The notes below the pieces were generated by a model. That model saw only the letters and a program-made list of their open reading frames with translations. It had not been told where the DNA came from and searched no databases. A DNA stretch of 64,000 nt from contig JADJLX010000005.1 of the NCBI GenBank assembly GCA_016709865.1, positions 1,116,001 to 1,180,000 on the forward strand. Reading direction: 5' to 3'. Source of the stretch: Bacteroidales bacterium (GTDB lineage Bacteria > Bacteroidota > Bacteroidia > Bacteroidales > VadinHA17). Both the position numbers and the translations under genes were made by a program. Of the stretch, positions 2,142-18,805 are shown in pieces; position 1 is the stretch's first letter; each line of letters begins with the position of its first letter.

Positions 2142-4598
2142 CTAACCAAGGATCAGGCTCCCAACCTGAAATACTGTGAAGGACAGCAGCCAGGCAATAG
2201 ATGTTGTATAGACTACTACAAATGCAGCCCATTTCCAGCTGCCTGACTCGCGTTTTATTGCTGCTACAACACTTACACATGGGAAATATGTCAGGATGAA
2301 AAGCATAAAAGAAAAGGCAATAAGTGGAGTGAAAAGAATTTTTCCATCAGGACTTTTCTGAGTCTGTATTTTTTCCACAAGTGATGTTTTGCCTGAATCA
2401 TTATCAACCTGAAAAATGACTCCCAGGGTACTTACAACAACCTCTTTAGCTGCTAAACCTGAAAGAATACTCACACTTAGCCGCCAGTCAAATCCAAGGG
2501 GCTTCATAACCGGCTCAATTGAGCGTCCGATAATTCCCATAAATGACTGGCTCTGCTTCTCACCTTTTTGTTCGAGCAGTAGTTCATTAACAGATTCTGA
2601 TTTCTGCTGAACTGATAATTCGCTCTTTTCTATCCTTGAAATTTCATCTGAAAAATCTTTTGAGTGCTGAATGTTCCTGGGAAAATTACTTAATATCCAG
2701 ACTATTACAGAAGCGATCAATATAACTCCGCCAATCTTTTTAAAGTATAAACCGGTTCTGAATAATACATGTTTCAGTATACTTCTGACAGTTGGCACCC
2801 TGTATGGAGGAAGCTCCATTACAAAGGGGATCTCTGCTGATTTAAAGAAGACTCTCTTTAATAACAGAGCAGAAAGAATTGCGAAAATCATCCCGAGAAC
2901 ATACAGAAGGAATAACACTGTACCCTGATTTTTTGCAAAGAAAGCACTGATAAACAGGATATAAACCGGCAACCTGGCACTGCACGACATGAATGGTGTA
3001 ATCAGCATTGTAATCATCCTGTCGCGCTTGCTCTCGATTATCCTTGTTGCCATTATAGCAGGAACATTACATCCGAATCCCATAAAAAGCGGAATGAATG
3101 ACTTGCCATGCAGGCCGATCTTATGCATAATCTTATCCATTATGAAGACTGCCCTGGCCATATAACCGGTATCTTCCATGAATGAAATAAATAGAAACAG
3201 AATAATAATATTAGGAAGGAAGACCACTATACCACCTACGCCTCCTACAATACCTTCGACAAGAAAATCTCTTACTATTCCGGGATTAAGAATACCGGTT
3301 ATGAATTCTGAGAGCAAACCGGTCCCAACCTCAAGCCAGTATTTGGGATAGCCTCCAAGTTTAAATGTAGCATAGAAGGTAAGCCACATAAAAAAGACAA
3401 AAATTGGAATACCTAAATACCTGTTTGTCAAATAATTATCAATAACCTTGGTCTTTCTTAACCTCTCAACTTTATTTAATTTAAGAGTCTCTTTCAAAGC
3501 CCCTGAAATAAACCCGTATCTAAGGTCGGTGATGACAGTCTCTACAGGGTCTGAAAAAAGCTTTTCGAGTTTAAGGTATTCCTTTCTGGCTGTCTGGATT
3601 ATCTCCATGGAGTTTGTGCAGCGTGTTATGCTGTTGGAGAACTCCTTATCGTTTTCAAGTAATTCAATTGCAAGGTATCGGGCTGAGACAATATTTGTGA
3701 ATACACGGTTCTCTTCGATCTTTATTTTTGACTGAATTGCGCAGATTGAATTCTCTATTTCTGTTCCATAGTTAATATGGATATGCCTTACAATTGGTTC
3801 CCTGTTCTCATAGACCTCAATTATTTTGTTAAAGAGATCCTTTATGCCTTTACCTTTTGAACTGACTGTTGGTATAATCGGGACCCCGAATAATTTTCCA
3901 AGCGAAACATAATCAAGCACATCGCCCTTCTTCTCCAGTTCATCGTACATATTAAGGGCGATTACCACCTGAATGCCCATGTCGATCAGCTGTGTTGTCA
4001 GATAGAGGTTTCGTTCGAGGTTGGAAGCATCTACAATATTTACAACTATATCAGGCTTATTATCAAAGATATAATTACGCAGATAGATCTCTTCAGGAGA
4101 ATAGCTTTTAAGTGAATAAGTACCTGGCAAGTCTACAATAGAGAATGTATAACCTGATTGTTTATAACGTGCCTCCTTCGAGTCTACAGTAACACCGGCA
4201 TAATTGCCAACCTTCTCCTTAGAGCCGGAAGCATAATTGAAAAGAGTTGTTTTGCCAGAATTTGGATTACCGACAAGAGCAATCTGTATATGCTTGCTTT
4301 TTTCGAGCCAGCCTGTGTTCTCGTCGTCGCTGAAAAGAACACCCCGGGATGCATTCAGATCTTTCGAATTGTTTCCCCTGTCGACCTCAATGAGTTGAGC
4401 CTCGCTGTTTCTCAGCGAGATATGATAACCCATTATCATATATTCAATCGGGTCGCGAAGTGGTGCTTTCTTTATAACGGAAACCTTCTTGCCAACGACA
4501 AATCCCATTTCTGATAATCGCTGTCTGAATTGTCCCCGCCCCTTGATCTTCAGAATAATCCCCTCTTCTCCCTCAGCAAGATCGTATAGTGTAGTCAT
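2142..4598 (-). CDS. feoB: Ferrous iron transporter FeoAB (FeoA-FeoB fusion)
   Basis: This 818-residue inner-membrane Fe(II) uptake protein has FeoA fused to the N terminus of FeoB, as is common in Bacteroidota. Residues 1-75 are the FeoA SH3-like domain. The G domain follows, with G1 GNPNSGKT (110-117), G3 DLPG (156-159) and G4 NMYD (216-219). The membrane part carries the two Gate motifs, PLFMGFGCNVPAIMATRI and the region around TPFMSCSARLPVYILF, each with the conserved cysteine. Length and motif set are complete, so it should be functional. It stands alone; no feoC-like gene is seen. The next gene upstream is separated by a heptamer repeat array. Confidence 0.97.
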   Translation of the reverse strand: MTTLYDLAEGEEGIILKIKGRGQFRQRLSEMGFVVGKKVSVIKKAPLRDPIEYMIMGYHISLRNSEAQLIEVDRGNNSKDLNASRGVLFSDDENTGWLEKSKHIQIALVGNPNSGKTTLFNYASGSKEKVGNYAGVTVDSKEARYKQSGYTFSIVDLPGTYSLKSYSPEEIYLRNYIFDNKPDIVVNIVDASNLERNLYLTTQLIDMGIQVVIALNMYDELEKKGDVLDYVSLGKLFGVPIIPTVSSKGKGIKDLFNKIIEVYENREPIVRHIHINYGTEIENSICAIQSKIKIEENRVFTNIVSARYLAIELLENDKEFSNSITRCTNSMEIIQTARKEYLKLEKLFSDPVETVITDLRYGFISGALKETLKLNKVERLRKTKVIDNYLTNRYLGIPIFVFFMWLTFYATFKLGGYPKYWLEVGTGLLSEFITGILNPGIVRDFLVEGIVGGVGGIVVFLPNIIILFLFISFMEDTGYMARAVFIMDKIMHKIGLHGKSFIPLFMGFGCNVPAIMATRIIESKRDRMITMLITPFMSCSARLPVYILFISAFFAKNQGTVLFLLYVLGMIFAILSALLLKRVFFKSAEIPFVMELPPYRVPTVRSILKHVLFRTGLYFKKIGGVILIASVIVWILSNFPRNIQHSKDFSDEISRIEKSELSVQQKSESVNELLLEQKGEKQSQSFMGIIGRSIEPVMKPLGFDWRLSVSILSGLAAKEVVVSTLGVIFQVDNDSGKTSLVEKIQTQKSPDGKILFTPLIAFSFMLFILTYFPCVSVVAAIKRESGSWKWAAFVVVYTTSIAWLLSFTVFQVGSLILG

Positions 4599-4741: not shown

Positions 4742-5356
4742 TCAGTCAACTTTCACCTTAACCACAATCTTCTTAATCATCGTATTCTCACCGATTTTTA
4801 AACCCGGTCTGTGAATATCCGATGGAAAGAAAATAAAGAAGTTTTCCTGGGTAGCCTTGAAATGCTTACTCTCTTTAACTGTCATGAATTCAACCTCTTT
4901 AGCCGGATCATAAGGCACAGTAATTGAGTCCAATGCTGAATAGGGGGCGACGCTCATCTGCTCAACACCGATTATAACATACTGAATATCAATATATTTC
5001 TTATGAGCTTCAAATTTTGCATCTTCCTCATTCTTACTCAGATACTCACTTACAGGAGCAAAAACATTGTCCCCGTCAATTTCATATCTTTTTATCTCAA
5101 GCTTTGAGAGGTCGTTAGATTTAAGGAAGGTAAATGCCTTATCCCATCTCTCCCTGTTTTTGAAATAGGAAACAGCAAATTCTTTTCTGTTTATTGAACC
5201 GTCAGGAGTAATGTTCCATCCGTTTCGCCATTCACCTTTTTCGAACCATTTATCAATTTTTTCACTGCTCCAGGTAGCAGGATCTGTTGAACTTTTACAA
5301 CCGAAAATTCCAAGAAAGCCAGTTATTACCATGATTTTTATAAATATGTTTTTCAT
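4742..5356 (-). CDS. YhcH/YjgK/YiaL (DUF386) family lipoprotein
   Basis: The chosen ATG at 5356 gives 204 residues starting with a lipoprotein signal peptide (hydrophobic core then FLGIFGC, lipid Cys20). An earlier in-frame start at 5407 is unlikely, because a good promoter sits at 5395-5425. The C-terminal half has the YhcH family signatures AHKKYIDIQYVI and FFPSDIHRPGL, whose His and acidic residues bind metal in this cupin-like family, linked to sugar acid and sialic acid catabolism. Between the signal and this domain is a segment rich in Trp and charged residues (WSSEKIDKWFEKGEWRNGW). Export of this normally cytosolic family is the unusual point. The substrate is unknown. Confidence 0.85.
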   Translation of the reverse strand: MKNIFIKIMVITGFLGIFGCKSSTDPATWSSEKIDKWFEKGEWRNGWNITPDGSINRKEFAVSYFKNRERWDKAFTFLKSNDLSKLEIKRYEIDGDNVFAPVSEYLSKNEEDAKFEAHKKYIDIQYVIIGVEQMSVAPYSALDSITVPYDPAKEVEFMTVKESKHFKATQENFFIFFPSDIHRPGLKIGENTMIKKIVVKVKVD

Positions 5357-5663
5357 AATGAAACGGTTAATTTCAGTATTAGAATTATGAATTTCAAAAC
5401 TAGACAATAATTATTTCTAATCAAATAGAAAATAATTTAAGATTAGTCTGGCAAATCAGGTGTCATTTGCTGCGCTGTCATTTGCTTCGCGTCATTTGCG
5501 CTCCGCGCGTCATTTGGCTTTGCCGTCATTCGGTTGTCATTAATTGTCATTAATTGTTCTACTATCGAGTGACTATCGAATGACTATTGAAGGACAATTG
5601 AATGACTATTGAAGGACAATTGAATGACAATTGAATGACTATTGAATGACTATCGAATGACCA
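5357..5663. repeat. Gene-free gap with GTCATT/AATGAC repeat element, copy 1 (largest)
   Basis: The gap holds the lipoprotein promoter and then a mosaic repeat. From 5462 to 5551 there are seven GTCATT boxes spaced 10-18 bases apart, some separated by GC-rich mini-hairpins (TGCTTCGC, GCGCTCCGCGC). From 5568 into the stop codon at 5664 there are nine units of 11 bp, consensus AATGACTATTG. The second half is broadly the inverse of the first, so a large cruciform is possible. No open frame or transposase is seen. Confidence 0.85.
5395..5425 (-). promoter_or_regulatory. Bacteroidota-type promoter for the YhcH-like lipoprotein gene
   Basis: On the minus strand a -33 TTTG (5422-5425) is followed after exactly 19 bases by a -7 box TAGTTTTG (5395-5402), matching TTTG-N19-TAnnTTTG. 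It lies about 40 bases upstream of the ATG at 5356 and supports that start. Confidence 0.6.
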
Positions 5664-8600
5664 TTATAAATAATTCTTCACCATAGCAATCAAGACATCT
5701 TTTTTGACAGGTTTTGAAATATAATCGTCGAAGCCTGAGGCGAGGATTTTATCCCTGTCTGATTCTAATACAAATGCTGTTTGTGCGATAACCGGCAACA
5801 AAGGGTTTCTTCTTTTAAGAATAGACGTTGCCTCATATCCATCCATGAGAGGCATCTTTATATCCATTATAACCAGATCGATACTATTATTTGACTTACA
5901 TATTTCAACCGCCTCACTTCCATTAACTGCGTGAATAATTTTCAGGTTTAAATGAGAAAGCAGTTCGACTATCAACCTGAAATTATTTTCTTCATCTTCG
6001 GCCACCAACACAGTCTTGTTAGCTATACTATGCGGGATAATCCTCTTGTTGTTTTCAGCTTCATCTCTAACATATCCTTCTGCCCCTTTGCAGGGTATTG
6101 TAAAAAAGAAAGTTGATCCGTTCCCGGGTTCAGAAGAAAGCCAGATACTACCTCCAAGCAGCTCAATATAAGCCTTTGATATTGAAAGTCCCAGTCCGGT
6201 ACCCTCATATTGACGGGATATAGTACTCTCTACCTGATAGAATCGCTCGAATATCTTAGAGAATTGATCTCCGCTAATTCCGATCCCTGAGTCTTGAACA
6301 AAAAATTCCAAATTATTTAAGTTGACTTTATAACCCATTACAATCCTGCCGCTATTAGTAAACTTTACAGCGTTACTAAGCAAGCTGGATAATACCTGCG
6401 TTAGTTTAGCTCCATCAGTTAAAACATTTGCCTCGCTATCGTTTAAACCGTGGGAAACCAGGAATTCCAGATTCTTTTGTTCTGTACCGGGAAGGAACTG
6501 ATTGTAAAGATTTCTTATAACAGAATTCAGGTTGACTATTTTAGTATTTAGCTTAAGGATCCCCGCTTCAATATTTGAAATTTCAATAATGTCAGTTACT
6601 ATCGAAAGAAGGTGATTACTGCTCTTTGTAATAATATCGATGTATGATGTCTGAGAATCCTTATCCAGATCAGGTTCATTAAGCATCGATGTGAATCCTA
6701 TTATGGCATTCATAGGGGTCCTTATCTCATGAGAAATGTTATGAAGAAACGCTGTCTTCAGCCTGTCGCTCTCTTCAGCTTTCTCTTTAGACTTAATTAG
6801 TTCATATTCAGCTTTTTTACGATCTGAAATATCTCTGCATACTATAATTAACGATAAAGGATTTCCTTCTTTATCCAGCAAAGGTGACGATGAGATTTCA
6901 CCCCAGAACAGTGAATCATCAAACCGTCTTAATTTATATTCACGGGTTTCAGGTGCGATATTTCCCTTCATAATTTCCAAAACACGTTCCATTATAGCAT
7001 TCTTAGAATCCGGTGCAAGCCATCTGAGAATAGATGTATTTGTTACATTTTCACCCGCAGGAATCCCGAAGATTTCATAGGCTTTCTTCGAACCATATGC
7101 AACATTTCCTTCAAGGTTGGTTATAATTATTCCGTCAGGTGAGATATCCACCAGCGTCCTGTAATAAGCCTCAGACTCGATTATTTTCTGTTCCATGATC
7201 TTTCGCTCGGTAATATCTATGAAGATTTCGAGCATCGCTTTTTTACCCCGGAATAAAATACCTGTATGACTTATATTGAAGATTTTATTACCCAGCACAC
7301 CTTTTGATTCATAATTTTCTGTCTTGCCTATCTTAATTCCCTTAAATAACGGGCAATCAGTACACTGTCTCTTATCGTCGCGGTAAAGTTCCCAGCATTT
7401 ATTTCCAATTGCTTTATTGCCAAACAATTGATGAAAGTTAGCGCTCTGAAACAAAACAGTTCCGTTCTCATCAACTATATCCATTCCAAACGGGATAGTG
7501 GTGAGTAATGAATTATTAAATTCATAACTCTCCTTTAGTGCCTTCTCAGATATATTTCTTGCCGTAACATCCTGAACCGTAGATATCATTAAGTTCTGTT
7601 CATAAAGCGGGATATTGATTGCTGTAACATATTTCAGTTCTCCGTTTCGTGTTGTAATTTCGATATCCTCCCACCTCATTTTTAATGGATCGCTGGAAGT
7701 TATATCTTTAATAGTTCTCTCGCGCATTTTCTCTCTTTGTACAGAATCTACATATACAATGTCGAAAAATTCACCTACAGATTTTAAACTACCCCTCGGA
7801 ACTCCATAAATCTCCTCAAACCTGCTTCCTACGTAAACTATTGAACCATCATCTATTTTGTTAACTGCAAATCCTATTGGTGAATTCTCCAGAATTTTTT
7901 CAATGAATTCCTGTTTTTTCACTATTTCCAGTTCAGCATTCTTTCTGTCAGTAATATCCCTAAAAACACCAAATGTACCTGTAAGCAGGTTATTTTTTGA
8001 AAATTGGGGGGTTGCAGTAATAAGCAATGTTCTCTGCTCTCCGTTAGGACGGATAATATCAATCTCGTATGTGGATTTTTTATCTTTGGTTCTTTTCCGT
8101 GTCTCCCGCTTAATTACAGGTATGTATTCAGGTTTCACAAAATCCAGCAGATTGCGGTTAAGCAGGCCTCCCTTTTCCACACCCAGCATCTCCTCAGCAG
8201 CCGGATTGGCGAAAACAAACTTTTCCTCAAGATCAACAATTCCAACTCCTTCTCCCTGGTTTTCAATAAGAAGCCTGTACTTTTCCTCACTCGTTTTAAG
8301 TTTCTGCTCAGATCTTCTGCTTTGGATGGTTGTGGCGGCTAACCGTGCAAATGCAATCAAAACTTCTTTTCTGGGTGCAACGGTACCTTTTTTAAAACCG
8401 AGCATAGTAGTCCCAAAAAATTCTCCTCCAATCACGTTAGCAATCGCATAGAAACGATCGATACCTGTAACTTTTTTTATTACTTTATCCGTAATATCTG
8501 ACACCTGTCCAAATGAAAGTTCTTTTAAAGAATCTGCTACAGCAAAGTATTCCCGCAGGATAAAATCAATTTTTTCCTCCGGTACAGGAATCAGAGACTC

Positions 8601-9827
8601 AAAATACTTCAGTCCTAAAGAATTTGATACCTTATTAATCACTTCCTGATTAGTCTCTATGTGTCTGATCTGAATAGCCTTCTTCTCGGGTAAATAGTCA
8701 AGTGAAACGACAATAAAAGCTTCAGAAAACTCTTTAATCTTTTTAGCAAGGAACTCATTGATATTATCTGTCAGCGAAAGCTGAGTGAGTTCGAAAGCAA
8801 GTGTATTGAGAAAACTAAGTTCCCTGTTCTTGGCTTCAAGTTCCTGTTCAGCTAACTTACGATTAGTAATATCGTGACCGATCCCGACTAATCCCTCACA
8901 TTTACCATTTGCGTTAAACAATGGATATTGCGTAGTAGTCAGATACCTGATTTCACCGTTACTGTTAACGAACTCTTCAATTTTATCAATCTTTGGTATA
9001 CCAGTCTTAACAACACTCATGCTGTCAGAATAGAAACGGTTACCAGTCTCCCCCGGATAGATTTCCAAATCTGTTTTACCAATAAGATCCTCTTCTGACT
9101 TACATCCGGTAATTTCCACGTCGGCCCTGTTAGCAATTATTTTCCTGCATTCACTGTCAAAAACATAAATGGTATCAGGAATATTATCAATAAGAGTTCT
9201 TAACAAATTGCGTTCAGACTGTAGATTTTCTTCTGTTTTTTTACGCACAGCCATCTCTTCTTTCAGGTCTTCCATGAGGTTCATAATAGCCTGCCTGTTC
9301 CTGGTTATCTTATCCAAAGAAAGAATCAGTTTGTTCTCTGCTTTTTTCCTGTCGGCAAGCTCAATTTCAAGGGCTGCAGTACGGTCAAGAACCATGTCTT
9401 CAAGCCGTTGCTTCTCTTCACTTTTTAAATCCTCAGATTCCCTGATCCTTAATATTAACTTGATCTGTGCCTTAAGTTCTGATCCATCTACCGGACTACG
9501 CAGGAATGCCTGGACTCCTGCCTCAAGTGCGTATGCTCTGCTCTTCTTATCAGAATTGTCTGATATTAACATTATTATAGGGATATGCCTCAGGCTTTCA
9601 TTTGACTTAAGTCTTGAACAGACCTCAAATCCATTCAATCCAGGCATAGAGATGTCGAGCAGGATAACATCAGGGTATTCCTTTTGGCAAATCTCCAATC
9701 CCTGCAAGCTAGAATTGGCCGACAAATACAATGCATCAGGAAAAGCCTCATACAACAAATTCCTGAGTTCACTAAGATTATCCATACTATCATCAATAGC
9801 AAGGATTTTTACATGTCGTTTTTCCAT
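5664..9827 (-). CDS. Hybrid sensor histidine kinase: REC-PAS-GAF-PAS4-HisKA-HATPase-REC
   Basis: This is a 1387-residue cytoplasmic kinase with no membrane segment. An N-terminal receiver (6-130, Asp58) has RSP where receivers normally have a conserved Lys-Pro. A coiled coil, PAS1 (about 205-330), a GAF-like domain (345-500) and four more PAS domains (515-1010) follow. PAS4 contains a Cys cluster (CWELYRDDKRQCTDCPL). HisKA has FLHNISHEIRTPMN (His1033), the ATPase has LLSNAVKF (Asn1152) and EGTGLGLSI, and the terminal receiver has VIMDIKMP (Asp1322) and SKP (Lys1372). A candidate promoter lies in the 72-base gap upstream. The signal and output are unknown; its phosphate may pass to neighbouring receivers. 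Confidence 0.93.
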   Translation of the reverse strand: MEKRHVKILAIDDSMDNLSELRNLLYEAFPDALYLSANSSLQGLEICQKEYPDVILLDISMPGLNGFEVCSRLKSNESLRHIPIIMLISDNSDKKSRAYALEAGVQAFLRSPVDGSELKAQIKLILRIRESEDLKSEEKQRLEDMVLDRTAALEIELADRKKAENKLILSLDKITRNRQAIMNLMEDLKEEMAVRKKTEENLQSERNLLRTLIDNIPDTIYVFDSECRKIIANRADVEITGCKSEEDLIGKTDLEIYPGETGNRFYSDSMSVVKTGIPKIDKIEEFVNSNGEIRYLTTTQYPLFNANGKCEGLVGIGHDITNRKLAEQELEAKNRELSFLNTLAFELTQLSLTDNINEFLAKKIKEFSEAFIVVSLDYLPEKKAIQIRHIETNQEVINKVSNSLGLKYFESLIPVPEEKIDFILREYFAVADSLKELSFGQVSDITDKVIKKVTGIDRFYAIANVIGGEFFGTTMLGFKKGTVAPRKEVLIAFARLAATTIQSRRSEQKLKTSEEKYRLLIENQGEGVGIVDLEEKFVFANPAAEEMLGVEKGGLLNRNLLDFVKPEYIPVIKRETRKRTKDKKSTYEIDIIRPNGEQRTLLITATPQFSKNNLLTGTFGVFRDITDRKNAELEIVKKQEFIEKILENSPIGFAVNKIDDGSIVYVGSRFEEIYGVPRGSLKSVGEFFDIVYVDSVQREKMRERTIKDITSSDPLKMRWEDIEITTRNGELKYVTAINIPLYEQNLMISTVQDVTARNISEKALKESYEFNNSLLTTIPFGMDIVDENGTVLFQSANFHQLFGNKAIGNKCWELYRDDKRQCTDCPLFKGIKIGKTENYESKGVLGNKIFNISHTGILFRGKKAMLEIFIDITERKIMEQKIIESEAYYRTLVDISPDGIIITNLEGNVAYGSKKAYEIFGIPAGENVTNTSILRWLAPDSKNAIMERVLEIMKGNIAPETREYKLRRFDDSLFWGEISSSPLLDKEGNPLSLIIVCRDISDRKKAEYELIKSKEKAEESDRLKTAFLHNISHEIRTPMNAIIGFTSMLNEPDLDKDSQTSYIDIITKSSNHLLSIVTDIIEISNIEAGILKLNTKIVNLNSVIRNLYNQFLPGTEQKNLEFLVSHGLNDSEANVLTDGAKLTQVLSSLLSNAVKFTNSGRIVMGYKVNLNNLEFFVQDSGIGISGDQFSKIFERFYQVESTISRQYEGTGLGLSISKAYIELLGGSIWLSSEPGNGSTFFFTIPCKGAEGYVRDEAENNKRIIPHSIANKTVLVAEDEENNFRLIVELLSHLNLKIIHAVNGSEAVEICKSNNSIDLVIMDIKMPLMDGYEATSILKRRNPLLPVIAQTAFVLESDRDKILASGFDDYISKPVKKDVLIAMVKNYL

Positions 9828-9857
9828 AAATCAATAATTCGGTTATAGGAAAATGGG

Positions 9858-9865
9858 CAAATCTA
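9858..9865 (-). promoter_or_regulatory. Candidate -7 box upstream of the hybrid kinase
   Basis: TAGATTTG on the minus strand matches TAnnTTTG and lies 31 bases before the ATG at 9827. No clear -33 TTTG is found at the right distance, so the call is weak. Confidence 0.35.
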
Positions 9866-9899
9866 TAATATCTCTATCAAGCGCCTGTTACCATTTGCC

Positions 9900-10808
9900 T
9901 TATTCTACAATTTTATACTTCTCTTTCTGACCCATTTTTTTAAGCAATGAATTCACTTCCTGCTTTAATTCAATCATTTTAAGTTCTCTTCCTACTGTAA
10001 GATCATTGAACTGTTCAAGCTCCTCTATTTTTTGTTTTAAAGCAGTCTCTGATTTTTTCTGTTCGGTAATATCTATAGTGAAACCGGCAAGATATGTGGG
10101 CATTCCATGTACCTTAATCGGGAACTTTAATGTCTCATAAATTCTTCCATTCAGCTCTTCCACCACACTTACAGGCACATTATTTTTCAATACGGTGAGG
10201 TCATCATGAATCATCGTTTTTGCTAGCTCTTCAGGAAATATTTCGAACATACTTCTTCCAATCACCTCATTTACCGGGCGTCCGATCATTTTTTCATAAT
10301 TGGAACTGAGTCTGATGGGACGGGCTTCATGGTCCTTAAAGAAAAAAAACACCGGACAATAATCCATGAAAGCTGTAAAAATCTGCTCGCTCCTTCTCAG
10401 TTCACTCTCAATTTTTAATTTTTCCTTTACTATCTCTCTTTTTTTCAAGGCCTGATTCAAAGCTGAAGCAAGGCGGGACAGGTTTTGCTTGATAACATAA
10501 TCATCGGCACCAGCTTTCATTAATTCAACAGCTATCTCCTCATTGATAGAGCCGGTAACAAGGATAAATGGTACTTCAGGGGCCATTTCATTCTTCAGTA
10601 AAAGAGCAGTCATACCATCGAATTGTGGCAATGAATAATCAGATATTATCAAATCAGGTTCAAATGACTTAAGTGCTGAAATGTATTCTTCTTTATTCTC
10701 AACAAGCTTCTTACTGAAATTTACCTTGCTCCTTGATAGTTCTGTCCAGATCATCTCGGCATCTGCAAGTACGTCTTCAAGAAACAGAATTTTGATTGAA
10801 TCTTTCAT
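9900..10808 (-). CDS. REC-PAS protein without kinase domain
   Basis: The 302 residues comprise a receiver (about 5-125) with acidic EDV at 11-13, phospho-acceptor Asp57 in LIISDYSLP and Lys in YVIKQN, then a short coiled coil and one PAS domain (about 145-260). The last 45 residues form a charged helix with VGRELKMIELK, almost the same as the C terminus of the 7TM-PAS protein at 14273-16291. There is no DNA-binding, kinase or cyclase domain. It probably relays a signal between kinases by protein contact. The gene lies between the hybrid kinase and the Rcp1-type regulator, on the same strand. Confidence 0.88.
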   Translation of the reverse strand: MKDSIKILFLEDVLADAEMIWTELSRSKVNFSKKLVENKEEYISALKSFEPDLIISDYSLPQFDGMTALLLKNEMAPEVPFILVTGSINEEIAVELMKAGADDYVIKQNLSRLASALNQALKKREIVKEKLKIESELRRSEQIFTAFMDYCPVFFFFKDHEARPIRLSSNYEKMIGRPVNEVIGRSMFEIFPEELAKTMIHDDLTVLKNNVPVSVVEELNGRIYETLKFPIKVHGMPTYLAGFTIDITEQKKSETALKQKIEELEQFNDLTVGRELKMIELKQEVNSLLKKMGQKEKYKIVE

Positions 10809-10840
10809 ATAAATACCATTTATACATTAATAAATTCTAT

Positions 10841-10905
10841 GTCATTCGGCTTCGCCGTCATTCGATTGTCATTTGATGGTCATTTATTGTCTTTCAATTG
10901 AATGA
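10841..10905. repeat. GTCATT/AATGAC repeat element, copy 2
   Basis: Boxes at 10841, 10856, 10867 and 10878 read GTCATT, the first two separated by CGGCTTCGCC; the element ends with CAATTGAATGAT close to the stop codon of the Rcp1-type regulator. It is the same family as the element at 5462-5666. Confidence 0.75.
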
Positions 10906-10909
10906 TATC

Positions 10910-11353
10910 TTATTTAAGCGGCTGATTAACAAGCAACCAGTATAAACCCAGGCTGCTCATGGCACTGACAAACTTGTCGAAGTCAACAGGTTTTACAACA
11001 TAACTGTTTACCCCCAGCTCATAAGCTTCCTTCATATCTGGTTCTTCACGTGATGATGTCACTACGACAATCGGGATATGCGATATTCGCTTATCGGATT
11101 TTACAAGTCGCAATACTTCAAGTCCGCTAACTTTTGGAAGTTTTAGATCGAGCAGAACAACCTTGGGAGGATTCTGAAAATTTCTGCTTTCAAACTTCCC
11201 TCTGCAGAAGAAGAAGTCTAGAGCCTCCTCCCCATCCTCTGCAACATAAACATTATTGGCAAGATTGTTTTTCTTCAATGCCCTAAGAGTAAGTTCAGCA
11301 TCACGGGGATCATCCTCAACGATTAAAATTTCGATAGCATTCATATCTGTCAT
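10910..11353 (-). CDS. Single-domain response regulator, Rcp1 type
   Basis: This is a stand-alone receiver of 147 residues. Acidic residues sit in IVEDDPRD (Asp14, Asp15), the phospho-acceptor is Asp69 in VVLLDLKLP, and the conserved Lys is in YVVKPVDF. An insert between helix 2 and strand 3 ([19 protein letters not shown]) marks the Rcp1 subfamily that pairs with phytochrome-like PAS/GAF kinases. The gene directly upstream (11477-14215) is a kinase of that type, so the two are likely partners. It has no output domain and acts by protein contact or as a phosphate relay. Confidence 0.92.
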
Positions 11354-11402
11354 TTTTCTATAATTATTTGTTAACCACTTAATTTGCTTCTCTCAATTTA
11401 CA

Positions 11403-11480
11403 GTCATTTGCCCTTCGGGCGTCATCCACTAATCTGTCTCAGGTTATCAAACATTTGAATGACTACTTAATGACTGTTAT
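11403..11480. repeat. GTCATT/AATGAC repeat element, copy 3
   Basis: GTCATTTGCCCTTCGGGC at the left, a GTCATC box, then TTGAATGACTACTTAATGAC running up to the stop codon of the four-PAS kinase. It has the same left and right design as the other copies. Confidence 0.7.
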
Positions 11481-14215
11481 ATATTCTTTATAGCCGGCAA
11501 CGAGAAAAAGAAAGTGGCTCCTTTACCAACTTCTCCTTCAGCCCAGACTTTTCCACCATGACGGTGAATTATCCGCTGAACAATTGCCAGGCCAACTCCG
11601 TTACCCTCGAATTCTTTGGTACTATGAAGACGCTGAAATACCCCAAACAGTTTATTTGAGTATTTCATGTCAAAACCCACACCATTATCCCTCACATAGT
11701 AAGCCTGGCTATCCTTTGACTGCTCCCATCCAAAATAAATTGAAGGCTTATCATTTTTAGAACTGTACTTTATTGCATTCGATAACAAGTTGGTAATGAC
11801 CTGCTTTATGGCTGTGGAATCACCATAAGCTGAAGGTAGTTTATCCACTTTAATGTTGATCCGAAGCAAGTCTTCAGGACTAACAACTTCACTTAAAACA
11901 GCTTTAACCATTTTCGTCATATCAATTTTTGAGGAATTGATCTCCGACCTTCCTACCCTAGAAAATGAAAGCAGGTCATCGATGAGCTGTCCCATGTGAA
12001 CTGCACTATTTTCAATTATTTCACAGATTCTTTTTCCTTCATCATCAAGAGTATCCTTATAATCTTCCTTGAGTATCCTCGTATAGCTATGGACTGCCCT
12101 TAGCGGAGCTCTTAAATCATGTGAGACAGAATAACTGAATGCTTCCAGCTCTTTATTTGCTGAATTAAGCTGCGAGGTCCGCTGATAAACTTTTTTTTCG
12201 AGATTCTCGTTTAGCGCTATTATCTCCTGTTCCGCAATTCTCCTTGCAGTTATATCGTTTATAATTGCAAACAAAAGTTTTTTACCTTCATCATTATAAA
12301 TCTGCAAAAATACCTCAACAGGGTAATCGGTACCATTCTTCCTTCTGTGACTTGTTTCGAATACCAAGACTTGCTTCTCAAAAGAGAGTAATGGCTTCAG
12401 CATTTCCCTGAATGTTTCTTCAGAAATAAATGGTTTAATATCGATGGGGGTCATAACCCTCATCTCGTCAATTGAGTATCCAATATTTAAAAGAGCTCCC
12501 CGGTTTACATATTCGAATATTAATGTCTCAGAGTCGAAAATATATATTTCATTCGAACTTTTATCTATTATATCAAGGAGCCGGAATCGCTCGCGTTCAA
12601 GCTGAATACGCTCGGTTATATCGCTTATCGTTGTTATAAAAAACTGGGGATTACCGGAATTATCTCTCTGTAGATATGTTGTTATATCTGTAAAGATGAT
12701 CTTACCACTCTTATGAAGGTAGCGTTTATCCCATCTTGCCCATTCTGCCTTACCTGAAATGAGAGTTTCGACAATCTCTTCAGTTCTGGGTATATCATCA
12801 GGGTAACTAATCTCTTTCCAATTCTTAGACCTTAATTCATCTTCAGTATAACCAAGAATTTTGCAAAATGATTTATTAACATTTATCGTACCGTCTATAC
12901 CTGTCATTGATTTGCCAACGGGGGAGTGTTCAAAAAGATTTCTGAATTTTTCCTCACTCTCCCTTAGGGCCAGTTCCGCCCTTTTTCTCTCTGTAATGTT
13001 CCGTGCAAAAGCTGTAGCTCCTACTATTTCATTGTTTTCATTTCTTATCGGATTATAAAACGACTCAAAGTAGCTCCGTTCTGATTCCCCATATTCCTGA
13101 ACAGTAATAAGTGATTCACCATTCATGGCACGGCTATAGTTTTCTATTGCATTTTTTTTATCATCCTCCCCTACCATGCATTCGAGAAGATTCATCCCTG
13201 TTTCCACATCAGTTCCATAGGCAGATTTCATTACTGCTTTATGATTGTTATTAAATGACAGATAATTAAAATCCTTATCTATTGCAAGGATTATCATGTC
13301 TACAGGACTTTCAAGAGTGGCCTTAAGTATTAGCTGTGTTTCCTTAAGATTATCCTCTGTATTTTTACGTGCAGTAATATCATCAATCATAGCAAGAAAA
13401 TACAGGAACTTTTTTTCAGGGTCTCTTATAGCACTAATGTTGACGGATCCCCATACTGTCTTACCGTTTTTAGTTAAATATCTCTTTTCAGTCTGATAAA
13501 ATGGAATATTTCCTTCATATAGGTTTTTTACCGATTCAATATCCCTTGAAATATAATCGGGGTGGGTAAAATCCCTGAAAGTCATAGAGGAGAGTTCTTT
13601 ATCGGTAAAACCTGTAAAACGGCAGAACGCTTCATTAACATCAATGAAACTAAAATTTTTATCTACTAACGCCATACTTATCTTGCCATCTTCGAAAACT
13701 CTCCGGAACTTTTCCTCACTTTCACGCAGAGCCAGTTCAGATTCCCTGAGATAAGCTTCTGCCAGTTTTCTTTTTTCAATTTCATCAGTCAGATCCTCAA
13801 TCAGGTTAATTGAAGCACTTCTCGACTCTTCCAGATCCCTGAGATTGGTTTCAACCTCCCTTAACTTACTGATTGAAACCTCCTCAAATAAGTCTCTGTC
13901 CTTCTCAAGTTTTTGTTCAAATTCCAAGCGTTCAATTATTATTGCAAGCATCTGAACCGAATTATTTATCAGAACACGATGTACATCATTATCAGTCTGG
14001 AGTAAGGTTGTACCAATAACTCCAAAGGATGACTTTCCAGTCCTGATTTCAAAGAATTCTGACCCTTCTGGACTATCTGCCGAATAATTGAACTTTACAG
14101 GCTTAAATATCTCATCCATACCCTCAACAAAAAGCAGAATTATCTTCTCTTTGTCATGTAGCTGCGACAGATTAAATGTTAAAAGAAACAGATCAGATGC
14201 CAGATTCATTTTCAT
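11477..14215 (-). CDS. PAS sensor histidine kinase (GAF-like N terminus, four PAS, HisKA, HATPase)
   Basis: The 912 residues contain no membrane segment. A short GAF-like domain (about 1-100) and a coiled coil lead into four PAS domains between about 165 and 660. HisKA has SYSVSHDLRAPLR (phospho-acceptor His699). The ATPase domain carries ITNLLSNAIKY, the DNGVGFD box and EGNGVGLAI. This kinase type (HDLRAPL) is the usual partner of Rcp1-type receivers, and such a gene lies 123 bases downstream. The second PAS is clearly related to the second PAS of the 7TM-PAS protein next door, pointing to duplication within the block. The ligand is unknown. Confidence 0.93.
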   Translation of the reverse strand: MKMNLASDLFLLTFNLSQLHDKEKIILLFVEGMDEIFKPVKFNYSADSPEGSEFFEIRTGKSSFGVIGTTLLQTDNDVHRVLINNSVQMLAIIIERLEFEQKLEKDRDLFEEVSISKLREVETNLRDLEESRSASINLIEDLTDEIEKRKLAEAYLRESELALRESEEKFRRVFEDGKISMALVDKNFSFIDVNEAFCRFTGFTDKELSSMTFRDFTHPDYISRDIESVKNLYEGNIPFYQTEKRYLTKNGKTVWGSVNISAIRDPEKKFLYFLAMIDDITARKNTEDNLKETQLILKATLESPVDMIILAIDKDFNYLSFNNNHKAVMKSAYGTDVETGMNLLECMVGEDDKKNAIENYSRAMNGESLITVQEYGESERSYFESFYNPIRNENNEIVGATAFARNITERKRAELALRESEEKFRNLFEHSPVGKSMTGIDGTINVNKSFCKILGYTEDELRSKNWKEISYPDDIPRTEEIVETLISGKAEWARWDKRYLHKSGKIIFTDITTYLQRDNSGNPQFFITTISDITERIQLERERFRLLDIIDKSSNEIYIFDSETLIFEYVNRGALLNIGYSIDEMRVMTPIDIKPFISEETFREMLKPLLSFEKQVLVFETSHRRKNGTDYPVEVFLQIYNDEGKKLLFAIINDITARRIAEQEIIALNENLEKKVYQRTSQLNSANKELEAFSYSVSHDLRAPLRAVHSYTRILKEDYKDTLDDEGKRICEIIENSAVHMGQLIDDLLSFSRVGRSEINSSKIDMTKMVKAVLSEVVSPEDLLRINIKVDKLPSAYGDSTAIKQVITNLLSNAIKYSSKNDKPSIYFGWEQSKDSQAYYVRDNGVGFDMKYSNKLFGVFQRLHSTKEFEGNGVGLAIVQRIIHRHGGKVWAEGEVGKGATFFFSLPAIKNI

Positions 14216-14272
14216 GATTATTGTCGTTTGCTTAACGCTATATATTGTTATTTGCTTCTCAACAAATGCGCC

Positions 14273-16291
14273 TTATTCACTATCTTTGCTGATGATCTCC
14301 TTTGGTGCTTTATATCTCTCAGGCATATTAAGTTTTATGCAGAGTTCATTTATTTCCTTCTTAAGCTCTATCATTCTGATTTCCCTGCCTACCATTATCT
14401 TATTGAATTTTTCAAGTTCATGAATCTTTTCCTTAAGCAGATTCTCGGTATTTATCCTCTCTGTAATATCCTGTCCCTGTGCAATTGCAGCTATAGGAGT
14501 CACCCTGTCTTTATCATAGATTGTTGCTGAATTCCAGATAACTGTCCGCACTGTGCCATCAACATTCTTTATAGGGATTTCAACAATCTCCCATCTTGAG
14601 CCCAGCGTTGTGTTTCTGATATTTACCATCGATTCATCCTTTGTTTCAGCAGGGAAAAGAATATCTATTTTCTTATTAATAACATCAGATGCTACTAATC
14701 CGGTCAGGCTCTCAAATGCATGGTTAAAACGTGTAATAGTAAGGTTTGTATCCCATACAATTATTGGTGCGTTAGCATAATTTATGAGGTTTTCAAGGTA
14801 TTCGCTTGTCTCACGCAGTTCTTCCTCGATTATTTTTCTGTGGGTCATATCCCTTGCCAGTACTGCCACTCCGATTACTTCAGATTTATCATTTAATATG
14901 GGATTATGGGAAACCTCAAAGTATAATTTCGACAGACGATCTTCTCCTGAAAAAGCTTCCTCTGTGATCTGCTGCCCTTTCAGCGCCAGATCAATATTCT
15001 TTTTTGCCTTTTTTCTGTCATCCGGATTCGACATACAATCTAGCAGATTCTTACCAACCTCAATGTCAATATTATATATATGTTTCATTACAGCAGCATG
15101 AGTCTTGTTAAAGCTTGTATAGCAGTAATTTACATCCACTGAAAAAATAGGACTCGGAGAACTGTCATTCAGTCCTTTTAATGTAAAGAATTGCTGTCGT
15201 AACTTTTCCTCGGCATTTTTATAGTCTGTAATATCATGAAAGACAACTATCCCGGCTTTTACTTTGCCTGAATCGTTAAATATTGGAGCCGCATTAGCCA
15301 GGACAACTCTATCGTCATTAAAACCGCGTGAAATAATAAACTCTCTGCTATTTGCTTCACCATACAAAACAGCCCTTGCAAGAGGCACTTCTTCCGGCTT
15401 ATATGGTGTACCATCATGATGTTTGATCTGCCAGCTTGAAACATATCTATTAATATCAATATCCTCCACAATCTCATCCTCTTCCTTTGCAGGAATCATA
15501 AGTCCTGCCTTATTTACATACCTGAGCTTACCATCAGGAGCATCTGCAATTGCAATACCTGACGGACTGCAATCCATGGCTGCCTGAAGCAAAGCCTGCG
15601 ACTCCCTTAATAATCCGGAGCTTTCTTCCATGCTGAAAAGAAGCTTTTTATTGAACATAAGTGCCAGGCTGTAAGTGAGAAGAATAAAAAGCATCTGATA
15701 AAAAATAAGAACTAAAGATTCGAAACCATTTGTCTCAAAATAATCGTTCCCGGGATGCTCTGCCGTAAAAAAATTAATGATCCTGCCGGTATTGATCACA
15801 CAATAAAACAAGAAAATAAATCCGATGCTTGACGTAAGCCTGCGCATCTCCCCTTTCAGTCTGAATGCTACAAGCCAGCAAACCTGTAATCCAACAATAA
15901 GAAATGCAGTTGCAAGGTTAAGATTACGCACAGGCAGATCGGGTTTCACAATACTGAACCAGAAATGAATAAAAATAAATACTGCCAGCAACATCCAGTT
16001 GAGAATATGTCTTCTTCTTATCCCAGCAAAATACTCAAGGCCAATCAGACCAAGAATATTGCCTGCAATAACAAGTGAATTTGATAAAACCATCGACATC
16101 CAGTCAGGTACTACACCCCTCATTGCAATAAGTGCAAGGGCTACAGTCTGAAATGTGAAATTGACAACCCAGTATATTGTTCCGAAGAAATGTTTTCTGT
16201 TCTGTATCCAGAGCATCACCATGACTATTGTAATAATCATGTCTGTTATCAGGAAACTGAAAATCAGAGTACGCATATCGGGTGAAATCAT
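14273..16291 (-). CDS. 7TM-type membrane sensor with three PAS domains, no kinase domain
   Basis: The first about 220 of 672 residues hold roughly seven hydrophobic segments, starting TLIFSFLITDMIITIVMVML and ending ILLTYSLALMF. Three PAS domains follow (about 235-350, 355-475, 485-605). The C terminus is a charged helix with FNKIMVGREIRMIELKKEI, nearly the same as in the REC-PAS protein at 9900-10808. No kinase, GGDEF, EAL or methyl-acceptor domain is present. It could be a membrane receptor that docks to a separate kinase; this is inference from the shared tail and the location between kinase genes. Confidence 0.87.
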   Translation of the reverse strand: MISPDMRTLIFSFLITDMIITIVMVMLWIQNRKHFFGTIYWVVNFTFQTVALALIAMRGVVPDWMSMVLSNSLVIAGNILGLIGLEYFAGIRRRHILNWMLLAVFIFIHFWFSIVKPDLPVRNLNLATAFLIVGLQVCWLVAFRLKGEMRRLTSSIGFIFLFYCVINTGRIINFFTAEHPGNDYFETNGFESLVLIFYQMLFILLTYSLALMFNKKLLFSMEESSGLLRESQALLQAAMDCSPSGIAIADAPDGKLRYVNKAGLMIPAKEEDEIVEDIDINRYVSSWQIKHHDGTPYKPEEVPLARAVLYGEANSREFIISRGFNDDRVVLANAAPIFNDSGKVKAGIVVFHDITDYKNAEEKLRQQFFTLKGLNDSSPSPIFSVDVNYCYTSFNKTHAAVMKHIYNIDIEVGKNLLDCMSNPDDRKKAKKNIDLALKGQQITEEAFSGEDRLSKLYFEVSHNPILNDKSEVIGVAVLARDMTHRKIIEEELRETSEYLENLINYANAPIIVWDTNLTITRFNHAFESLTGLVASDVINKKIDILFPAETKDESMVNIRNTTLGSRWEIVEIPIKNVDGTVRTVIWNSATIYDKDRVTPIAAIAQGQDITERINTENLLKEKIHELEKFNKIMVGREIRMIELKKEINELCIKLNMPERYKAPKEIISKDSE

Positions 16292-16394
16292 AAATGCACA
16301 GATTAATTTGTTTTGACGAAAGTTACTCTTGAAAATGCAAACCGGGTGTAGGATATGTTCTGATTATTCTGTAAGGGAATTACCTACAAAATGG

Positions 16395-16490
16395 GTCATT
16401 TGGCCTGTGGCCGTCTTTTACTTCGTGTCATTCGATTATCATTGATTGTCAAACCATTGAATGACTACTGAATGACTATTATATGACTAT
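16395..16490. repeat. GTCATT/AATGAC repeat element, copy 4
   Basis: GTCATTTGGCCTGTGGCC at the left, further GTCATT and ATCATT boxes at 16427-16446, then CATTGAATGACTACTGAATG and ATATGACTAT reaching the stop codon of the NarL-type regulator. It lies in the 195-base gap between that gene and the 7TM-PAS gene; nothing else is recognised there. Confidence 0.75.
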
Positions 16491-17131
16491 TTTTCTTCCG
16501 ACAGTCCCTCCTTTATTGCATAACGGATAATATCGGAGGTGGTTTTAAGTTTTAGTTTTGAGAGGATTCTCTCCCTGTAAGTACTTATTGTTTTAGGGCT
16601 TAAGGACAACAGATTGGCAATATTACTCATTGTTTTGCCTGTTGCGAGAAGCGAGAGAACCTCCAGTTCCCTAACTGAAAGTTTTTCATGCAAAGGAGAA
16701 TCTGAATCCTCAATCAGATTAGAAGTTATTTTTTCCGCCAGTGATGCAGAAATATATCTGCCTCCCTGCGAAGCTTTTATTACCGCTGAAATGAGTTCAT
16801 CAGGTGCACTGGCCTTTGTCAGATAGCCTGCTGCTCCCATTTTCAAAGCACGAAGGGCATATTGTTCTTCAGGATAGATACTAAGTATTACAACTTTAAG
16901 TGCTGGTTTGAGTTTTTTAATATCAACAAGCAAATCCAGCCCGCTTCGTCCGGGTAAAGAAATATCAAGGAGAACCACATCAAAATCAGATAAATTCAGC
17001 TTCTCCAGAAGCTCCTTCCCGCTTCCTGCCTCCTCAATCTTTCCGAATCTCTCTTCCTTGTCATCTTCCAGGAGCTGTCGGATTCCTCGTCTGACGACAG
17101 GGTGATCATCGGTTATTAGAATTCTTATCAT
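16487..17131 (-). CDS. NarL/FixJ family response regulator (REC-LuxR HTH)
   Basis: The 214 residues comprise a receiver (1-120; acidic Asp8-Asp9, phospho-acceptor Asp56 in VVLLDISLPGRSG, Lys in YLTKAS) and a LuxR-type helix-turn-helix (about 150-210; LSVRELEVLSLLATGKTMSN and SPKTISTYRERI). It is a DNA-binding transcription regulator switched on by phosphorylation. Its start is 11 bases after the stop of the NarX-type kinase, so the two form an operon and almost certainly a cognate pair. It is the only DNA-binding output in the signalling block. Confidence 0.95.
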   Translation of the reverse strand: MIRILITDDHPVVRRGIRQLLEDDKEERFGKIEEAGSGKELLEKLNLSDFDVVLLDISLPGRSGLDLLVDIKKLKPALKVVILSIYPEEQYALRALKMGAAGYLTKASAPDELISAVIKASQGGRYISASLAEKITSNLIEDSDSPLHEKLSVRELEVLSLLATGKTMSNIANLLSLSPKTISTYRERILSKLKLKTTSDIIRYAIKEGLSEEK

Positions 17132-17142
17132 TTAAAATTGAA

Positions 17143-18615
17143 TTAATAATTTGGATCAGTTTTAGCTTTTAAACATAATGGAATTCTAACCTGAATAATT
17201 GTTCCCTCCCCGGGTTTGCCTGAAATTATAAACTCTCCACCGACAAGTAATATCCGCTCTCTCATCCCTGCCAATCCAAAAGATTTTGGATTTTCTATTT
17301 TTTCAGCTTCAATTCCCTTACCATTATCTTCAACAGTAACTTCCAGAATTTCACCGCGTATGGTTAAAATGACATGAACCTTTGTTGCCTTGGAATGCCG
17401 GACCACATTCGTTAAAGCCTCCTGTACAACTCTGAAGATTATCAATGCTGACTGACTGTCAATCTCTATTTCTTTAGGCACAAATGAAGTTTTACATAAA
17501 ATTCCTGATGTCCTGATGAACTCCTTTATCTGCCATTCAAGAGCAGGAATCAATCCCAGATCGTCGAGAATACTGGGACGTAATCCATACGAGATTTTCT
17601 GAATACTATCTATAGCTTCGTTCATGAGTAAGGTCATCTGCCGCAATTTATTCTCAACTGTGCGTGATTGAACACCAATTCTGGCTTTCAGCCATGCCAA
17701 ATCCATATTAAGGGCTGTAAGTTTCTGTCCCAGATCATCATGCAGATTTAAAGCGATTTGTGATCTTTCGTTTTCAAGAACTTCATTCATATGCTGATTA
17801 AGTTTCTCAAGAGAGTCTTTTGACTTCCGAAGTTCTGCTTCAGCTATCTTATGACTGGTGATGTCAAAATGTTCTGCCTGCAAATAAAGTAATTTACCGG
17901 AAGCATCCTTTACTTGCTTTGCCGAGACTAATGCCCAGAATTTTTCTCCGTTTTTTTTGTTCAGCTCAAATTCAGTAGGTGGCATATACCCGTTTTTTTC
18001 AAGAAGGCTGAGAACTTTTTCTCTGTCGGCAGGATCAGAGTATAGCATCTTTATGTTCGTTGAGACATCCTTAAGCAATGATTGAATATCAGGATACCCA
18101 TAAAGATCTGCATAAGCTTGATTTATTCTGAAAAAGCCTGATCCCGGCTTTGCCTGTGATATACCCATCATTGAGTTTTCAAACAAACTGCGGTATTCAT
18201 CAACTGATAGTTTAAGTTTTTCCAAAGTTGTCTTCAAATCTGTTGCATCTCTCAGAATTGTAATCGTCCGGTCTCTTCCTTCTGAATCTTTAAAAACTGA
18301 AGAAGTAAAATCAACCGGGAAGATTGTTCCATCCTTTCTCCTATACCTTAATTCCCCTGAAATTTTTCCGGTCTTTTCTCTCTCCAAAAGCAATAAAGGT
18401 ATCCTTTCATCACTTGGATCAAGTATACCGTCACGGCCAGCTTTAACGAATTCTTCAACACTATAACCAAACATTTTGCAGGCAGCAGGATTTGCTGATT
18501 GTATTCCACCATCAGTTGAAGTGATAAGAATAGCATCAATGCTGTTCTCAAAGATAGCTTTGTAAATATTCTCTGAATTATTTCGGTGCACCCCTCCCTG
18601 CTTACTTTCAGTCAT
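17143..18615 (-). CDS. NarX-type sensor histidine kinase, PAS-PAS-HisKA_3-HATPase
   Basis: An ATG at 18615 gives 490 residues; a TTG at 18717 would add 34 residues with a hydrophobic stretch but lacks support. Two PAS domains (about 15-130 and 135-260) precede a HisKA_3 dimerisation domain with ERSQIALNLHDDLGQK (His292) and an ATPase domain ending in KSFGLAGMRERILLVGG and GEGTIIQV. This subfamily phosphorylates NarL-type regulators, and one lies immediately downstream. The gene diverges from copA with about 190 bases between the starts, so copA is a candidate target, by inference only. Confidence 0.92.
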   Translation of the reverse strand: MTESKQGGVHRNNSENIYKAIFENSIDAILITSTDGGIQSANPAACKMFGYSVEEFVKAGRDGILDPSDERIPLLLLEREKTGKISGELRYRRKDGTIFPVDFTSSVFKDSEGRDRTITILRDATDLKTTLEKLKLSVDEYRSLFENSMMGISQAKPGSGFFRINQAYADLYGYPDIQSLLKDVSTNIKMLYSDPADREKVLSLLEKNGYMPPTEFELNKKNGEKFWALVSAKQVKDASGKLLYLQAEHFDITSHKIAEAELRKSKDSLEKLNQHMNEVLENERSQIALNLHDDLGQKLTALNMDLAWLKARIGVQSRTVENKLRQMTLLMNEAIDSIQKISYGLRPSILDDLGLIPALEWQIKEFIRTSGILCKTSFVPKEIEIDSQSALIIFRVVQEALTNVVRHSKATKVHVILTIRGEILEVTVEDNGKGIEAEKIENPKSFGLAGMRERILLVGGEFIISGKPGEGTIIQVRIPLCLKAKTDPNY

Positions 18616-18713
18616 TTTCAGAATATTATCAACATGTACTCCTGATTTCAACAATATACGAAATCCCTGAAATAAGATGATATTAATGTTGCATATTATT
18701 AATAGAAAACAAT

Positions 18714-18732
18714 CCAATGACTATTGAATGAC
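18714..18732. repeat. Short AATGAC repeat fragment, copy 5
   Basis: CCAATGACTATTGAATGAC is a short two-unit remnant of the repeat seen downstream of the other signalling genes, here in the divergent region between the NarX-type kinase and copA. Confidence 0.6.
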
Positions 18733-18772
18733 TTTAAGATGTTCTGCAAACATCCGGAGAAGATAATTGTTA

Positions 18773-18780: not shown

Positions 18781-18805
18781 TAAATCGCATTTAAAAACAC
18801 AGTTA

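Follow-up and report, generated by a model that had tools for sequence, protein, structure and literature searches.

How do sensory proteins that carry neither a kinase nor a DNA-binding domain pass on what they sense? Many bacterial proteins made of PAS and receiver (REC) domains are annotated without an output, and their mode of action is an open question. It is raised here by seven adjoining signalling genes (g1 to g7) in a 64,000-nucleotide stretch of a Bacteroidales bacterium genome (assembly GCA_016709865.1, contig JADJLX010000005.1, positions 1,116,001 to 1,180,000), hereafter called the window. An earlier note, made from the letters alone, had described seven minus-strand signalling genes at positions 5664-18615 and counted in them about 15 PAS domains, three histidine kinases, five receivers (spread over four proteins), a 7TM-PAS protein and a single transcription regulator. 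Our open reading frame (ORF) calls, together with Pfam and domain profiles built in the present analysis, returned the same genes and totals, with exactly 15 PAS domains (Table 1); the ORFs were taken from stop to stop, so their starts and overlaps are inexact. Two of the proteins, g2 and g5, have no output and end in a common C-terminal tail. We propose, with a confidence just short of even, that the block is a conserved signalling locus whose tailed, output-less sensory subunits g2 and g5 couple in trans to a neighbouring kinase.

The tail motif shared by g2 and g5, which the earlier note had also pointed out, is real, with E values of 2e-26 and 6e-25 (both sequences belong to the profile used). 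It covers about 50 residues with the consensus ELExFNxLxVGRE[LI][KR]MIELKxE[IV]NxLL...[KR]Y, and five residues of FN...VGRE..MIEL (F, R, E, M and L) did not vary in 40 of 40 non-redundant tails, a sample picked by shared words. Identity between tails ranges from 48 to 98% in proteins of differing domain make-up. In an AlphaFold2 model of g2 (mean predicted local distance difference test score 90.9), the tail consists of a helix (residues 248-267), a break (268-273, NDLTVG), a second helix (274-291) and an extended end. No Pfam family scored above its cut-off for the two window tails and 29 members (best E 0.002), and no NCBIfam family was found for the two window tails; likewise, solved structures gave no tail match (best E 0.23), and a phage collection gave none at E 1e-3. 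A search of the open-licence PubMed Central subset, aimed at the tail letters or at PAS proteins that lack an output and carry a motif of this kind, found no paper, although one may exist in print. As judged from its sequence, the tail is a defined, uncatalogued element.

Searches with the two window tail regions alone returned 17 and 85 proteins, and a copy of the g5 tail region with 98% identity was found in a 672-aa protein (P0001) of a Bacteroidales metagenome-assembled genome (MAG). Using a tail profile (A3) built from 29 tails and a threshold of E <= 1e-6, we found 173 of 1,535 genomes to be tail-positive, internal copies included. These genomes came from samples centred on Bacteroidota, Verrucomicrobiota, Pseudomonadota, Nitrospirota, Acidobacteriota and Chloroflexota (42/395, 31/194, 49/398, 32/148, 5/199 and 14/201), labels that were taken from the titles of the centre loci; four of the six centre genomes were already tail-positive beforehand (from 10 positives among 25 genomes). 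The regions examined comprised 20 of 64 places in the Verrucomicrobia group plus the earlier genomes G021 and G022, three in the Pseudomonadota group, three in the Nitrospirota group plus three of G014, only those of G009 for Acidobacteriota and none for Chloroflexota. One record of a plasmid collection, from Paroceanicella profunda, encodes a substrate-binding-domain protein capped by the tail (46% identity); its gene overlaps that of an ATP-binding protein by 4 bp, and an EAL response regulator comes next.

The tail lies mostly at the end of the protein. In all 29 rows of one sample (four of which repeat a protein) its end lies no more than 22 residues from the C-terminus, and in 40 of 41 rows of a second sample no more than 36. 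It caps output-less sensors and receivers with REC or PAS inputs, bare receivers among them; further capped inputs, going by precomputed Pfam accessions, are presumably GAF, PocR, HAMP/dCache, CHASE3, a 5TM family and CheB/CheR. In the Bacteroidota sample, 21 of 52 rows were C-terminal tails and 31 were internal to kinases, namely 30 HisKA-HATPase hybrids (PAS detected before the tail in 27) and one HDLRAPL kinase (locus L165), with 89-119 residues separating the internal tail from the H[DE][LI]R motif after it. The hybrids are not 30 independent cases, because they are similar in length and order and apparently form one orthologous family. Internal and C-terminal copies thus indicate that the same element joins PAS to kinase in cis and caps output-less sensors elsewhere. 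The hybrid family, PAS-tail-linker-HisKA-HATPase-REC(-REC), occupies L188-L229 (for example L200 9356-11947) and is the sole two-component gene of most of these stretches. Some Pseudomonadota-group chains carry two tail copies about 400 residues apart (tail-PAS-tail, L266 3352-5505), so the tail unit can be repeated, and in L270 (1-13001) of the Nitrospirota-group sample a single REC-rich hybrid kinase is surrounded by five tail genes within 13 kb.

Exchange between tail and kinase core shows in the domains to which each is attached. In a tree of receivers, whose support values are rough, 16 of 19 tail-fused rows (window g2 included) fell together with one kinase-fused row (L006) in a 17-row clade (91/88), and the FeoAB-linked kinase-fused receivers formed a separate clade of 11 (93/74). 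The N-terminal domain of g4 is present in nine distinct proteins, five of which are kinases (window g4, L001, L015, L195 and L192) and four of which are tail proteins (L213, L133, L185 and L087). The tail proteins of L185 and L087 (the same gene in L146) stand directly before a kinase; that of L133 is separated from one by a single tail gene, and that of L213 by a tail gene and a receiver. The 721-aa L213 protein aligns to g4 residues 3-702, up to the kinase core, with 28% identity. The same input is thus found either fused to a kinase or on a tailed protein shortly before one, and on these alignments receiver and sensor regions occur fused to either the tail or the kinase core.

Is the block itself a unit? 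The earlier note had raised the possibility of a chance cluster. The nearest of eight genomes compared was G001 (Bacteroidales MAG GL140_4; loci L001 and L011), with 80% identity over a 1,497-aa window protein, and a receiver alignment brought in 78 loci. Receivers of the g3 type (E <= 1e-40) were found at 39 places in 27 of the 117 genomes of G001's family, with 76-90% identity at 14 of them. This makes g3 the best conserved member, about as conserved as FeoAB (82-86%, eight loci) and more so than the kinases (about 33-65%). At these 14 places, the gene directly upstream of g3 is a g4-like kinase in 13 of 13 (a contig end cuts G005), and the one directly downstream is receiver-led in 13 of 13 (G060 is cut); the latter are 12 hybrid kinases and one REC-PAS-tail gene like g2 (L001). 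In 9 of 12 places (G005 and G069 are cut) the kinase is preceded by a NarX-NarL pair, which is absent from the stretches of G001, G062 and G072. The core order is kept in these relatives, which speaks for a unit; against it, 90 of the 117 family genomes have no g3 match at E <= 1e-40. The stretches examined around the 14 places showed no CopA match. Judging from synteny, we conclude that the block is a conserved two-component signalling locus and not a chance cluster.

The surroundings are less constant. A DUF386 gene adjoins the block in 8 and FeoAB in 5 of the 14 syntenic places, and a PQQ gene lies beside it in G004, G060, G061 and G062. A related lone hybrid kinase stands beside FeoAB in L009, L011 and L014, and in L009 and L014 it is all that separates the PQQ gene from DUF386-FeoAB, so that this site can hold differing numbers of signalling genes. 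The g1 kinase core clusters with its L001 homologue (support 97/96) and lies outside the 14-hybrid clade to which the FeoAB-linked kinases belong. In G001, the hybrid next to FeoAB (L011) is on another contig than the g4-g3-g2-g1 cassette (L001). This grouping and the separate contigs lead us to suppose that the window may join two histories, a FeoAB-linked signalling site and a tail-bearing cassette.

Gene order in the wider sample was compared next to kinases. A kinase lies within 5 kb of the C-terminal tail gene in 16 of 19 cases of the Bacteroidota sample and 10 of 20 of the 25-genome set, and within 5 kb of the centre in none of 21 control windows, which measured up to 20 kb and were drawn from genomes that bear the tail or are related to those that do. 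In some of these control genomes the tail is known only in its internal form or not at all, and two-component genes tend to cluster in any case. For 81 tail genes, the next gene on the same strand is a kinase downstream in 35 and upstream in 7; the remaining receiver, PAS or GerE genes of these loci that are not kinases give 14 and 36 of 73 (genes too near contig ends and, in the other class, ORFs below 120 aa are skipped). A smaller set without L143 and L155-L160 gave 32 and 7 of 71 tail genes as against 12 and 29 of 60 others (Fisher 2e-6, binomial 7e-5), P-values that overstate independence since the loci share ancestry. When both ends had to be in view, the counts were 30 and 7 of 67 for tail genes and 10 and 25 of 40 for single receivers. 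The most telling control is small: among seven tail-less PAS-only genes of these loci (again leaving out L143 and L155-L160), a kinase lies downstream of two and upstream of none. The gene order is consistent with a sensor subunit ahead of its kinase, and it may be a property of the tail or of sensors in general.

The whole order g5-g4-g3-g2-g1 recurs in 2 of 20 regions of the Verrucomicrobia group, L248 (G565) and L251 (G689). These carry a PAS-tail gene (two in L248), a PAS-HDLRAPL kinase, a single REC, a REC-PAS-tail gene and a PAS-rich HATPase-REC protein, with identities of 53 and 56% for the g3 homologues and of 34 and 32%, over near-full length, for those of g2. L143 (G021) has a similar order with a REC-tail gene; in L133, L137 and L140, PAS-tail genes precede an SHDLRAPL kinase, a single REC and a REC-led hybrid, and L140 lies beside DUF386-FeoAB.

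Our proposal draws on domain content, synteny and the exchange between tail and kinase core, and on how well the tail is conserved, how widely it occurs, how regularly it ends the protein and how often it adjoins kinases, all read from the sequences; physical docking, the identity of the partner kinase and all phosphotransfer are what we infer. The core would consist of the HDLRAPL-type kinase g4, the single receiver g3 and the receiver-led partners g2 and g1, and the NarX-NarL pair g7-g6 would serve as the transcriptional read-out, being the sole DNA-binding output. The tail, standing where fused relatives have the kinase core, would couple g5 to g4, and g2 to g4 and/or g1. In such a circuit, g4 would take membrane and PAS input from g5 and would phosphorylate g3 and the receiver of g2, and g2 would report the phosphorylation state back by acting on g4 or g1 through its tail. 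FeoAB is a recurrent neighbour, and iron is on that account only a first guess for the signal or target of the locus.

Several observations weigh against this coupling. In loci chosen by g3, tail-less PAS-only genes also precede kinases (downstream in 5 of 5, upstream in 1), and six tail genes there have a kinase downstream in two cases and upstream in one; the position 5' of a kinase may be general to sensors and not specific to the tail. No kinase lies immediately downstream of 46 of the 81 tail genes, and the tail genes of L145, L148, L150, L156 and L157 are solitary. In the receiver tree, tail-fused P0041 and P0053 pair elsewhere and P0026 sits on a long branch. The g2 model is of a monomer and cannot show docking. 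Descent of the tail from a degenerate HisKA was not supported: hhalign gave probabilities of 13% and 3.5% (17 and 21 columns before the H-box).

Other explanations of the tail were weighed against the same data. The main rival, which we consider unlikely, is that the tail is a tail-to-tail assembly handle, by which a tailed sensor pairs with a tailed receiver (g5 with g2) and no kinase is contacted. Two or more tail genes do share a locus in L133 (3), L185 (2), L213 (2), L247 (3), L248 (3), L251 (2), L253 (2), L256 (3), L258 (2), L259 (2) and L270 (5), and helix 2 carries a heptad M-x2-L-x3-V-x2-L, read by eye on the modelled helix; yet lone tail genes stand beside a kinase in L137, L202, L250 and L267, and some kinases have the element built into their own chain. 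That built-in form suits a second idea, to which we give only a small chance: a PAS-kinase linker left over after loss of the kinase core, with no role past dimerisation. The tail follows PAS where the kinase would be, internal copies lie between PAS and HisKA, and the entry segment ELExF resembles ELEAF of HDLRAPL kinases. A remnant of this kind is difficult to reconcile with near-invariant charged residues and 48-98% identity across differing domain make-ups, or with a spread over genomes sampled around six phyla and attachment to bare receivers too.

The block might also be an ordinary accumulation of two-component genes, in which the kinases serve their own neighbours (g7-g6, g4-g3 and g1 alone) and the tails are incidental. 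This is distinctly improbable in our view, even though g7-g6 is a standard NarX-NarL pair of a kind also seen in loci without g3 (L186, L192), the L011 hybrid and the L001 cassette of G001 are on different contigs, and most family genomes (90/117) have no g3 match; against it, the order is kept at 14 places and is the same in the two Verrucomicrobia-group loci. Coupling of g2 and g5 to a neighbouring kinase through the tail is the reading that we prefer.

Such coupling can be compared with known systems. In RetS-GacS and other systems where a partner sensor regulates a kinase in trans, the sensor lacks a productive output and acts on the second kinase through direct contact; RetS does so with its kinase region, whereas the tailed proteins would use a tail of about 50 residues. 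The signalling helix (S-helix) is a helical connector from PAS to kinase, and the internal tail copies occupy an S-helix-like place. Unlike the S-helix, the tail is often terminal, has a conserved sequence of its own and shows a break between its two helices in the g2 model. The g7-g6 pair is like NarX-NarL, an adjoining HisKA_3 and HATPase kinase and REC-GerE regulator; the input of NarX is a periplasmic nitrate sensor, whereas g7 has a PAS input and the pair is part of a larger conserved locus. Hybrid two-component systems of Bacteroidota polysaccharide loci have an AraC-type DNA-binding domain in the same chain; unlike these, g1 gave no match to a helix-turn-helix family in Pfam, and its C-terminal domain is a receiver.

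In Leptospira, according to the excerpts available of two reports, LvrA phosphorylates the receiver of LvrB, the two are encoded by adjoining kinase and receiver-led genes of which neither has a DNA-binding domain, and LvrB is described as a prototype of Rec-controlled kinases (PMC5863495, PMC13269768). The window is similar in having a kinase gene next to a receiver-led gene, both without a DNA-binding domain, and phosphorylation of the g2 receiver by g4, as supposed here, would have a precedent in LvrA-LvrB (PMC5863495). However, g2 is REC-PAS-tail, with PAS and tail in the position of the DHp-CA of LvrB, and relatives in the g2 position are mostly REC-PAS-kinase-REC; a separate single receiver and tailed sensors are features of the window that the excerpts do not mention. 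In the NCBIfam models for LvrA and LvrB (NF047465, NF047466), g4 scored 293.4 bits (cut-off 1200) and g2 117.8 bits (cut-off 500), and they are not members.

Table 1 Features of the locus and its surroundings in the window (iterons are AATGAC/GTCATT hexamers)
Feature	Position	Strand	Description	Basis
FeoAB fusion	2142..4598	-	locus neighbour	
YhcH/YjgK/YiaL (DUF386) gene	4742..5407	-	locus neighbour	
Iteron array	5462..5661		13 hexamers in 11-bp iterons, opposite orientations	
g1	5664..9827	-	hybrid kinase REC-PASx5-HisKA(SHEIRTPM)-HATPase-REC, 1387 aa	Pfam, domain profiles
g2	9900..10808	-	REC-PAS-tail, 302 aa; without kinase or DNA-binding output	Pfam, domain profiles, AlphaFold2
g2 C-terminal tail	9903..10067	-	residues 248-302	
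Iteron array	10841..10884		4 hexamers, g3-g2 gap	
g3	10910..11353	-	single receiver domain, 147 aa	Pfam
Iteron array	11349..11474		4 hexamers, g4-g3 gap	
g4	11477..14215	-	PASx4-HisKA(SHDLRAPL)-HATPase kinase, 912 aa	Pfam, domain profiles
g4 N-terminal domain	13880..14215	-	about 112 aa; elsewhere fused to kinases or to tails	
g5	14273..16291	-	hydrophobic (7TM-type) N-terminus-PASx3-tail, 672 aa	Pfam, domain profiles, hydrophobicity plot
g5 C-terminal tail	14276..14464	-		
Iteron array	16395..16476		4 hexamers, g6-g5 gap	
g6	16487..17131	-	NarL-type regulator REC-GerE; only DNA-binding output of the locus	Pfam, NCBIfam
g7	17143..18654	-	PASx2-HisKA_3-HATPase, NarX-type kinase	Pfam
Iteron pair	18716..18734		divergent g7-CopA gap	

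The genes are transcribed in the order g7, g6, g5, g4, g3, g2, g1, with gaps of 11 bp (g7-g6), 195 bp (g6-g5), 57 bp (g5-g4), 123 bp (g4-g3), 101 bp (g3-g2) and 72 bp (g2-g1). The start of g7 is uncertain, at 18615 (ATG) or at a TTG at 18654 or 18717. The N-terminus of g5 shows eight overlapping hydrophobic stretches in a simple plot; Pfam, taken up to E 0.1, gave no match for the N-terminal regions of g4 (13826-14215) and g5 (15623-16291), and a first scan of genome contigs with g5 found no relative. Receivers usually carry a TKP motif. The first receiver of g1 has LRSP in this position (read by eye) and, because of this replacement, may have lost phosphorylation. The metal-transporter flanks noted earlier are present as FeoAB and a CopA-type P-type ATPase (18767-21244), the latter separating the block from a PQQ-repeat gene (21326-22547). 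In the window this gene is split into two ORFs in different frames; in relatives it is a single ORF, about 408-423 aa long.

Growth of the block by duplication, as the earlier note had suggested, was not supported for recent times, as for each of the 15 a PAS domain of another genome gives a higher score than any in the block; the closest internal pair, g4 PAS2 and g5 PAS2, has 42% identity. Domain shuffling between loci would explain the related PAS pairs better than recent duplication in place, and an old duplication may still lie behind them.

The gaps of the block also share short repeats. Five gaps, which lie within the block or border it and make up 724 of the 6,076 intergenic bp, hold 27 of the 29 intergenic AATGAC/GTCATT hexamers of the window. 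These iterons are mostly spaced 11 bp apart, with small GC hairpins between some copies, and precede g7 (and CopA), g5, g3, g2 and DUF386-FeoAB. In 12 related genomes, a 20-mer with up to three mismatches gave two matches versus four for a reversed control, and no comparably enriched 7-mer was found in 16 related loci; one other locus, L161, has seven hexamers in 120 bp. The iterons may be a species-specific operator tying the block together, or a dispersed repeat. No match to a Bacteroidota-type promoter pattern was found upstream of g7-g1, and sigma-70 and terminator scans gave no more matches than shuffled sequence. Tandem repeats of 7 bp occur in other intergenic gaps, at 4655-4737 (GGTACTG, AGCACCC) and 61396-61465 (AATTTTG).

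A broader form of the proposal, which we put forward tentatively and hold to be somewhat more doubtful than not, is that the tail is a plug-in module crossing phyla, that its bearer is a detachable subunit of a neighbouring kinase and that the five-gene order is the complete form. If so, kinases would obtain interchangeable inputs in trans, and a recognisable tail that marks kinase subunits would give some orphan sensors a testable partner. It would also widen the two-component scheme to split sensor-kinases that are assembled in trans.

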